DNA of 64,000 nucleotides from Asterias amurensis (lineage: Eukaryota > Echinodermata > Asteroidea > Forcipulatida > Asteriidae). The stretch is taken from assembly GCF_032118995.1 (NCBI RefSeq), contig NC_092662.1:1798001-1862000 (forward strand). The letters run 5' to 3'. Position 1 is the first letter of the stretch; every line of letters begins with the position of its first letter. Below the pieces are notes generated by a model. That model saw only the letters and a program-made list of their open reading frames with translations, was not told the origin of the DNA and ran no database searches. Shown here in pieces: positions 8,546 to 14,056 of this stretch. A program made the translations under genes and the position numbers.

Positions 8546-11500
8546 TTATTCCTGAAGTTGTTTGGCTCGCAGGAAGGATGCCTTCTTCAGACGGACACGG
8601 TCCTTGCGCTGGGAAAGGGACATCTTGGCTCGGTTCCACCTGTAATAGACACACAAACAAAGAAGTTGTTAAGACTGTTGTTACGGGAAAATAGTTTTGT
8701 GATACACTTCCTTTTACAAGACTTCAAAAGGAAAAGTGTGAAAATTAAGGAGCGTCTACTAAGCTTGTATTTCCAGCAGGTGGCCAACAAGGGCGTTCTT
8801 TTGCACCTGAAACCTGCTCGCCTTTGAAACGCTCCAATAGTCGCATACATATACTTTGAATTATTTCTTTCAGAAGCCAAGTCTAATCAAGGAAAATCAT
8901 ACGGTAATTCCAGCTATATTTGTTTGGCATCTCATCACAAAGAAATTTGTCCGATGTTTTAGTTTATTTTAATTTTAAGTAGTATCATTGGATCTTGGCT
9001 TTTTAAGAGGTAAATCTTACCTCTTGGTCTTCTTGACTTCCTTCTTCTCCTTCGCCTTGTGTTCGGGATCAGCGCGGATTGCCTCATGCGTCTTCTTGTA
9101 CATCTCTTCCATCTAAAACAACAAGGAGCAAGACCTTATCACTCAAGGTATTCAACAAAATAAGTATGATACAATACAGATGCCCACTTTTGGTAACACC
9201 CCCTTTCCATTTATTTTACACATGTAGGTATTGTAAGTTTGAATTTAGATCAAACATCAATACTCTAGCATCTAGGCCAGCAACTGCAGTTGGTTAAAAA
9301 GAAGAGAAAAAAAAGAAAATCTCCTGGCACAGCATGACTTTGACCGTTTTGGGAAATTGGAAATGGTAGTAGGCAGTAGACCTAGGCATTTGCATTAATG
9401 ATACATGGTCTGTTGTTTATATATTCTTTCAGAAGCCAAGTCTAATCAGGGAAAATCAGCCGGTAATTCCAGCTATATTTGTTTGGCATCTCATCATCAA
9501 GAACAGAAACAAGACAAAGTTAATTATAAAATGAGTTTCATGTACACTGTGCACATGACTAAACAATTTGCTTAACTTTATCCCAGCCAAATACAACAAA
9601 ATGCGCCAAATTGTAAGACTTGTATTTTTTTGCAGTCAACTAAAATCCCATATTCAGTAGCACTGGGCTTCATTTAGCATGGTCTGACATAGCCTTAACA
9701 TGTCCATGTGCAATCTGAGTCCCCAGCAAACTTCAATGCATATTGGTGCATTAAGAAGGGTTAATGCCCAGTACCAAAGCTAGTGTAAACCATTTTTTCA
9801 CTTCACAATGCAACATGATCTGCTGTTGGAAACCTACAGGATCACTCGGAACTATCTTTGGCCACAGAGGAATAGTTTTTTATTGTCTTTCTTACCCCGT
9901 CAGCTGTGATACCGAGCTTGATGTACTGAGAGAACTGTCGTCTGTAGGCTTCGTCATCCTCCTCCGCCAGGGATCTCATGTAGTCGGAGACGTGTCCGCC
10001 CATGATGTGCTTGCGGTGGACATCAGCGTTGAACTCTTTGCTGTCGGCGTCGAAGCCGGGGAAACGTTTGTTGCTGTTTGGGAACAATACAGGCAGCAGT
10101 TTAAGTACAGCAAAATCATTAACGTTGGGAACCAGGCAAAAACCAAAACCCTAAAAACAGAAACCTAAGCCCCCATAGAGGCGTTGTTTTTTTCTATTGG
10201 TAACATTCAAAAATCCCAAAGCCAAAATCAAAATAAAAAATCATGATTTCACTGGAAGCCAAAAAAACGCCCCAGTCCAATCAGTTCAGCTGAGCCACAC
10301 AAACCTACCACTAGCAAAACCTACTACTACAAGTGGCTAGGACCCAAGTGATTTCATAAATGATACAAAATCTTTAGGTGCATATTCTTTCAGAAGCCAA
10401 GTCTAATCAGGGAAAATCAGCCGGTAATTCCAGCTATATTTGTTTGGCATCTCATCATCAAGAACACTAAGAAAAACCACAAATTTATCCAAGAATTTTT
10501 ATTTGTTTTACACTTTGGATTGCTCTGGGGCATCTAACAGGCCTGGATTTCATCTTTGAGAGGGCAAGGCCACTAGAAAATTGGAAACTTTTGAAAGGGC
10601 ACTTTTGAAGACCAGAGGGCAACCGATGACATGGCCTCCATGACCTATGTAATTCCAGGCTTGATCTAAGGGAGATTGAGTAAAAAACTCACCTGTGTGG
10701 GATGTCGATGCCTCCATCGCTGGCGCCCTTCAGCACCCCAAAGACACGGGCACCGGTGGTGGTTCTGGCAAGGCCAACGTCCAGGTAGCAGCGGAAGGCT
10801 CCAGCCTTACCCTCGACGCTCTCGACATGAAACTCCTCCCCTGTGATCTCCGTCTCTCCCTCATACACGGTGTCAAGGTTGAATTTCTTCAGGATCTAAA
10901 AACATGAGAGTGGCACCTCCACATCATTAAAACTCCTAGGGAGAACACTCATGATTATTACAATCATTTAGGTGTTGAAACAAAATCATCACAACAAAAG
11001 ATTACCTAAAGCGCCAAGATACCTGGCAAGTTGGAAGTAGTTTTGGTGCATCTTTGTTAATGTAAAAATATTTGACAGGGTTCGAAAGTAGCAGTTGCCA
11101 AATAGGAGTGAAAAATAGCGACGGGCGAGTCAAAAACTTTCCTTCACAAGTAACTATGGAATAAGCCACCATCAGTCAATTTTACCTTGCCCAAAGATGG
11201 CATGAATTTGTAATCTCAGACGCCATGTATAATCAGCAAAAATCATCCGGTAATTCCAGCTATATTTTTTTGGCATTTCATCACAGATTAGAATCAAAAT
11301 CAAAGCTATGCACAAATGTAACGTAGCTGTAGTTAAAGGCATTTTACAGGATTGGTGGAGCTGAAAAAAGGGACAGTGTTCATATTTGTGTCATCAAGGT
11401 TATGCACGAAATAACAAACCAGTGAAAACTTTGGGCTTAATCTGTTGTGCGCGTCAGGAAAAATCAGTGAAAAATAAAAAAACAAAAACAAGTTTCAACA

Positions 11501-14056: not shown

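Follow-up and report, generated by a model that had tools for sequence, protein, structure and literature searches.

Why should every intron of one ribosomal protein gene carry its own copy of the same small RNA, and what would such a series be for? The question is raised by the gene for RPL5 in the window analyzed here, that is, the whole stretch of 64,000 nucleotides from the sea star Asterias amurensis. The coding region lies at 8546..14056 on the minus strand and, with exon boundaries set by GT-AG splice sites and reading frame, its seven coding exons and six GT-AG introns give an uninterrupted spliced open reading frame of 296 amino acids. The product matches the Pfam families Ribosomal_L5e (3.2e-85) and Ribosomal_L18_c (1.3e-20), and its top PDB matches are 60S L5/uL18. 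A snoU30-like match at 13990-14067 was not accepted, scoring 24.6 bits against a gathering score of 45. Elsewhere in the window, very long runs of a trinucleotide repeat (about 41214-45551 and 49484-51667) flank a 1267-aa open frame (45576-49376, minus strand) that is possibly a transposon, and two tRNA matches on the minus strand lie above the Rfam gathering score (16274-16346, 31.7 bits; 37198-37270, 48.1 bits).

Each of the six RPL5 introns was observed to hold one 82-nt box C/D RNA in the sense orientation (Table 1). The initial annotation had read these as RNAs of about 80 nt, amplified intron by intron as paralogues, and cmscan, the exon model and a repeat finder all agree with it, the last having independently returned a single six-member family at these introns. 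SNORD65 (RF00571) ranked first in cmscan for each of the six copies (E 1.1e-5 to 2.2e-3, 31.2-40.4 bits), but none of the six, nor either of two further copies in a second gene (30.5 and 30.8 bits), reaches the gathering score of 41. Because all six score below 41, none of them appears in the whole-window scan at the gathering score, and the RNAs are therefore called SNORD65-type here and not members by the Rfam cut-off. Box C (RUGAUGA) and box D (CUGA) lie near the ends of all eight copies, and a covariance model trained on these same eight copies gives them 103.6-109 bits, with at most 16.1 bits elsewhere in 15 sources (185.5 kb). Their MFE z-scores are modest (-0.48 to -2.45 in seven folded copies, one of which has the same sequence as the eighth). 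The D′ box reads CTGA in two copies and ATGA in the other six, and the ATGA form was counted against the reading of these RNAs as working copies. From intron 1 to intron 6 the copy begins 945, 535, 285, 227, 391, and 75 nt from the 5′ splice site and ends 143, 369, 314, 310, 310, and 224 nt from the 3′ splice site, and since these distances vary, the placement is not fixed. Vertebrate C/D RNAs have a preferred spacing to the 3′ splice site of roughly 70-90 nt; given this preference, the 143-369 nt seen here would also speak against working copies. In intron 6, two successive stem structures are predicted on the minus strand at 8690-8850, 3′ of the snoRNA, a fold with a z-score of -1.68 that was equalled by 13 of 200 shuffles and is a lead at most.

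Table 1. Coordinates of the guide RNAs and their hosts. Plain numbers are window positions; other positions carry the handle of the locus or contig.
Feature	Position	Strand	Basis or remark
RPL5 coding exons	14054-14056, 12698-12883, 11577-11711, 10693-10895, 9896-10073, 9021-9112, 8546-8639	-	
RPL5 introns 1-6	12884-14053, 11712-12697, 10896-11576, 10074-10692, 9113-9895, 8640-9020	-	
Box C/D copy, intron 1	13027..13108	-	cmscan, own covariance model, 18S pairing
Box C/D copy, intron 2	12081..12162	-	cmscan, own covariance model, 18S pairing
Box C/D copy, intron 3	11210..11291	-	nearest to the two FUBP-like copies; terminal stem differs, still pairs
Box C/D copy, intron 4	10384..10465	-	identical to intron 5 copy over 82 nt
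Box C/D copy, intron 5	9423..9504	-	identical to intron 4 copy over 82 nt
Box C/D copy, intron 6	8864..8945	-	cmscan, own covariance model, 18S pairing
Antisense AGCTGGAATTACCG, intron 1 copy	13065..13078	-	14 nt, alignment columns 31-44, same columns in all copies
Two copies in FUBP-like gene, outside window	L022:3943-4024, L022:4476-4557	RPL5's strand	pattern and cmscan
SNORD18 copies, RPL4	L057:2235-8869 (C5)	+	six, 41.6-46.4 bits, gathering score 41
SNORD36 copies, RPL7A	L059:3673-5396 (C15, RPL5's contig)	+	three, 60-64 bits, gathering score 30
C/D RNA candidates, RPS12	L060:3375-5426 (C20)	+	three, similar to each other
SNORA62-like H/ACA RNAs, FUBP-like gene	L022 and L039 (C15:1781943-1788549)	-	five, 60-74 bits

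What would these RNAs guide? A conserved stretch with 15 exact matches on contig C12 led to the animal's own 18S rRNA, whose bounds cmscan set at L037:672-2486 (L037 contains 5000 N, and the 28S motifs tried are all absent from it). The complementarity observed is complete: columns 31-44 form 14 Watson-Crick pairs with L037:1252-1265, without mismatch, in all eight copies, and the copies of introns 1 and 6 add one G-U pair beyond these. A shared antisense to 18S had been recognized from the outset, but with a length of 13 nt, which is to be corrected to 14. A41, the fifth nucleotide upstream of D′, faces the U of GGUAAUUCC at L037:1255, which is 18S position 584 when counted from the cmscan start. 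Judged by this pairing, the antisense is placed to methylate that U, the SNORD65/snR77 site. We take SNORD65 to be another name of HBII-135, with human U627 and yeast U578 as its target. A weaker second place for the antisense in 18S (L037:819, 12 bp including two G-U, six of eight copies) was set aside in favor of the 14-bp match. Columns 59-68 of the copies in introns 1, 4, 5, and 6 form 10 bp (two G-U) immediately upstream of the main target in 18S and may act as a second guide; this pairing, not listed for the other four copies, was equalled within 60 nt by 43 of 2000 shuffles. The same columns overlap an internal helix (columns 16-22 with 66-72), for which 83.7% of cells are paired and five of seven pairs are invariant, values that speak neither for nor against it.

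The family was initially thought to be confined to RPL5, which turned out to be too narrow. A search of the genome (491.5 Mb) with the pattern TGATGAN{10,25}AGCTGGAATTACC gave exactly eight matches, all on the minus strand of contig C15, and the reversed pattern used as a control gave none. Six of them are the RPL5 copies and two, at 1781982 and 1782515, lie about 24 kb downstream of RPL5 in a FUBP-like gene on the same strand, recognized by KH domains and a FUBP C-terminal motif in exons picked by eye. One of these two copies lies between two exons; the other follows the splice donor of the last exon in view, so that its intron is a presumed one. In the tree, both group with the copy of RPL5 intron 3 (support 99/99). 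A genome search with RF00571 returned 21 matches at E up to 10, eight of which are the copies described. The 13 others were rejected (E 0.128-8.55, a level also reached in nine of 14 prokaryote control genomes), and the only two of them with the antisense at up to two mismatches, on C8 and C2, have no TGATGA in the 45 bases upstream. That the series is a genome-wide dispersed repeat without relation to snoRNA function, an outcome that the initial annotation had named as one that would refute it, has a likelihood close to nil; nothing was found in its favor, and the pattern search has already refuted it as regards copies in which box C and antisense are retained.

It had further been claimed that boxes and antisense are kept while flanks and stem sequence have diverged, the stems still pairing, and the alignment bears this out. 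The 24 columns that make up box C (six), antisense (14), and box D (four) show no variation at all, compared with 35 invariant columns among the 58 others (Fisher p 8.7e-5). Covariation is observed in the terminal stem, in which 90.5% of cells are paired; this percentage, like the covariation score of 0.579 (shuffled mean 0.214), was reached by none of 500 shuffles. Two of the five stem measures are unremarkable against shuffles: changes on both sides occur in four of six pairs, but 119 of 500 shuffles also reach that count, and 228 of 500 reach the observed number of pair types. The outermost pair is unpaired in four of seven distinct rows. At positions 3-80, 4-79, and 6-77 the pair type is altered on both sides; of these, 3-80 and 4-79 have A-U types confined to the clade of intron 3 and the FUBP-like copies, which may go back to one event. 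Comparison of the 82-nt core with its 60-nt flanks gives 80/82 versus 82/118 identical positions for intron 3 and the second FUBP-like copy (FUBPb; p 9e-8), 79/82 versus 89/109 for the two FUBP-like copies (FUBPa and FUBPb), and 82/82 versus 69/114 for introns 4 and 5. In the last pair the flanks are about as alike as random 60-mers at their 95th percentile, and unrelated flank may therefore explain part of the core-flank contrast. The contrast has p below 0.05 in 27 of 28 pairs (p 0.052 for introns 3 and 4), most flanks being not homologous, and the flanks of most pairs resemble random intron sequence (mean identity of random 60-mers, 50%). On this evidence from sequence, boxes, antisense, and terminal stem would be under purifying selection while the flanks decayed, and conservation of this kind suggests that the copies work. 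That the copies of introns 4 and 5 are identical could be due to gene conversion instead of selection.

As to the origin of the copies, BLAST alignments that include the RNA extend over 215 bp for intron 3 and FUBPb, 143 bp for intron 3 and FUBPa, 139 bp for FUBPa and FUBPb, and 137 bp for introns 4 and 5, and over 104 bp or less for the other pairs; two RPL4 copies align over 224 bp and two SNORA62 copies over 335 bp. Alignments longer than the RNA itself argue for DNA duplication, and the pattern seems to favor short DNA segments that were duplicated and then decayed, perhaps with short-tract conversion also involved. RNA-mediated spread, by which mature snoRNAs were retroposed into introns, would suit most RPL5 pairs, whose similarity is lost a few to some twenty nt beyond the RNA itself, but we regard it as improbable, since the longest alignments run well into the surrounding intron and all eight copies are sense and limited to two genes, where scatter would be expected; it may nevertheless apply to pairs that share no flank. 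On DNA duplication, the guide family would have grown by short segments copied within RPL5 and also between RPL5 and the FUBP-like gene 24 kb away, after which the flanks would have decayed while boxes, antisense, and terminal stem were kept by purifying selection, and the same process would have acted on other guides in RPL4, RPL7A, RPS12, and the FUBP-like gene. Such a course has parallels in the portions of three studies drawn on here: human C/D families lie mostly inside one host gene, which is attributed to cis recombination (PMC8178906), intragenic duplication of snoRNAs is dominant in chicken (PMC2653536), and guides of sponge ribosomal protein genes were duplicated into neighboring introns (PMC3412847).

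The same habit is found in other genes of this genome. Five RPL4 introns have visible exons on both sides, and each of them holds one SNORD18, the sixth copy lying past the last visible exon; three of the six are identical over 73 nt. Five RPL7A introns are likewise delimited by visible exons, and three of them hold a SNORD36. At E up to 1, no Rfam family matches any of the three RPS12 candidates, of which one is upstream of the first visible exon and the others are in two of the three introns with exons on either side; two candidates are identical over 84 nt, and in both copies tested 11 nt (one G-U) are complementary to 18S at L037:1062. The exons of RPL4, RPL7A, and RPS12 were placed with human protein sequences. 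In the FUBP-like gene, which carries the two SNORD65-type copies near its 3′ end, the five SNORA62-like RNAs each lie between exons picked by eye and none passes the gathering score of 80, and among the best candidates scored, this gene holds the only places returned by a whole-genome SNORA62 search. A sixth, weak SNORA62 match is seen there at L022:6479-6637 (28 bits). Of the five cytosolic ribosomal protein genes with DNA examined here, four thus show guide multiplication. The five are a non-random set, obtained from the window together with searches for the L4 and L7Ae families, and chosen as their vertebrate relatives host guides. The C/D screen (12 sources) found no similar pairs in L039, L048, L058 (RPL30 by eye), L061, L062, L063, or L064, each with fewer than two C/D candidates per strand; cmscan covered seven of eight loci, all except L064. 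L048 was rejected as RPL4, having none of the cytosolic RPL4 motifs tried; it is another L4-family gene, probably mitochondrial, and the cytosolic RPL4 is L057. RPS8 was also located in this genome. Searches for SNORD38 and for SNORD58 (RF00151) gave no match, null results that the search tool marked as uninformative. Contig C5 also has two COX1 matches over the whole profile (658874-660214 and 675294-676634), probably nuclear copies of mitochondrial DNA. COX1 is carried as well by C23, the one contig of 16,427 bases among the 23 of the genome; there AAA occupies sites at which COX1 has conserved asparagines (as in PRMNNMSFWL and GGFGNWL), the meaning that this codon has in the mitochondrial codes of echinoderms and flatworms, in accord with an echinoderm.

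What, then, is the series for? We consider it probable that each RPL5 intron holds a working copy of a SNORD65/snR77-type methylation guide, and that these cis-duplicated, redundant copies are most likely kept for total dosage. Once the intron has been spliced out and debranched, trimming would leave a small RNA of about 82 nt; its D′ guide would pair over 14 nt with 18S and direct fibrillarin to the U of GGUAAUUCC. All copies would be interchangeable at this site, selection acting most likely on total guide output, and since they are redundant, one RPL5 transcript could give up to six guides. Anatomy, complementarity, copy number, covariation, and the better conservation of core than of flanks are what the sequence shows; expression of the copies, methylation of the site, and selection on dosage are inferred, and summed dosage would account most simply for the keeping of the copies. 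The alternatives address different steps, and their likelihoods need not add up to certainty. One of them is accumulation without any benefit of dosage, in which cis-duplicates drift in the permissive introns of highly transcribed hosts, one copy suffices, and conversion keeps the copies alike. It fits the cis recombination read from the human families, the spread of the pattern over unrelated guides and hosts, and the identical cores of introns 4 and 5, but no degenerate copy was found, all eight having both boxes and the antisense while the flanks of most pairs are random-like, and most stem changes are compensated; we hold it to be possible, though on the whole doubtful.

The initial annotation had suggested that the series couples 18S modification to the expression of L5. 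A regulatory device tying methylation of the 18S site to L5 output or splicing would accord with a guide and a ribosomal protein made from one transcript, in every intron, and is nevertheless very improbable, because two copies sit in the FUBP-like gene, other guides are multiplied likewise in RPL4, RPL7A, RPS12, and the FUBP-like gene, and the distances to the splice sites vary from 75 to 945 nt on the 5′ side and from 143 to 369 nt on the 3′ side. The FUBP-like copies and the parallel series leave nothing particular to L5 and this 18S site, and a device specific to L5 is not supported. A wider proposal can be put forward only tentatively and is rather unlikely to hold: the ribosomal protein host genes of this lineage may have reached saturation, nearly every intron making the host's own guide at a fixed multiple per mRNA, so as to give a genome-wide stoichiometric coupling between the supply of guides and that of ribosomal proteins, maintained by short-tract duplication and conversion between introns.

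Read as redundant working copies, the RPL5 guide series is a genuine and well conserved instance of a process already known, the cis-duplication of guides, and an unusually complete one. Among the matches listed in a literature search whose scope left most subscription journals outside, there was no paper on RPL5-hosted SNORD65 copies or on snoRNA host genes of echinoderms. Since the general process is already known, the gain is an unusually complete example and not a new mechanism, and the full occupancy of RPL5 and, as far as seen, of RPL4 is part of its specialist interest. With eight copies in two hosts, some flanks that can be traced, and comparable series in RPL4, RPL7A, RPS12, and the FUBP-like gene, it offers a natural series for the study of guide multiplication, in which dosage versus mere accumulation, as well as the limits that intron position sets on processing outside vertebrates, can be tested directly.

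In comparison with known systems, the RNAs share with SNORD65/HBII-135 of vertebrates and snR77 of yeast (RF00571) the same 18S target and antisense, with the guide adjoining D′. That such a guide exists outside RPL5 in yeast and human, and that vertebrate RPL5 hosts different ones, had been stated in the initial annotation, and a vertebrate RPL5 with another guide is seen in the rows of the chicken study used here: the snR77/HBII-135 equivalent (18S-U588, 13 nt, 5′ guide) is present as one copy in intron 4 of mRNA CR391615, and RPL5 intron 4 hosts U21 (PMC2653536). The host of the guide differs between chicken and this animal, in which there are eight copies, in RPL5 and the FUBP-like gene. 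The intragenic cis-duplicates in the same rows, U18a/b/c in RPL4, U36 in RPL7A, and U14 in HSPA8 (PMC2653536), are alike in being paralogues across introns of one host, in which the guiding regions are conserved and the remaining sequence is not. For chicken RPL4, five introns are listed with guides, namely introns 1 and 3 with U16 and introns 2, 5, and 6 with U18 (PMC2653536), so crowded hosts are already known to this extent. In the chicken U18, U36, and U14 rows, however, one guide occupies two or three introns, whereas here all six RPL5 introns are occupied, and SNORD18 fills each of the five RPL4 introns that have visible exons on both sides, with one more copy beyond. The sponge genes, in the excerpt used here, are alike in belonging to an invertebrate whose ribosomal protein genes duplicated their guides, but there the duplication reached a neighboring intron and not every intron as here, and intron 3 of sponge RPL5 holds a U24 orthologue, a different guide from the one that fills the RPL5 introns of this animal (PMC3412847).
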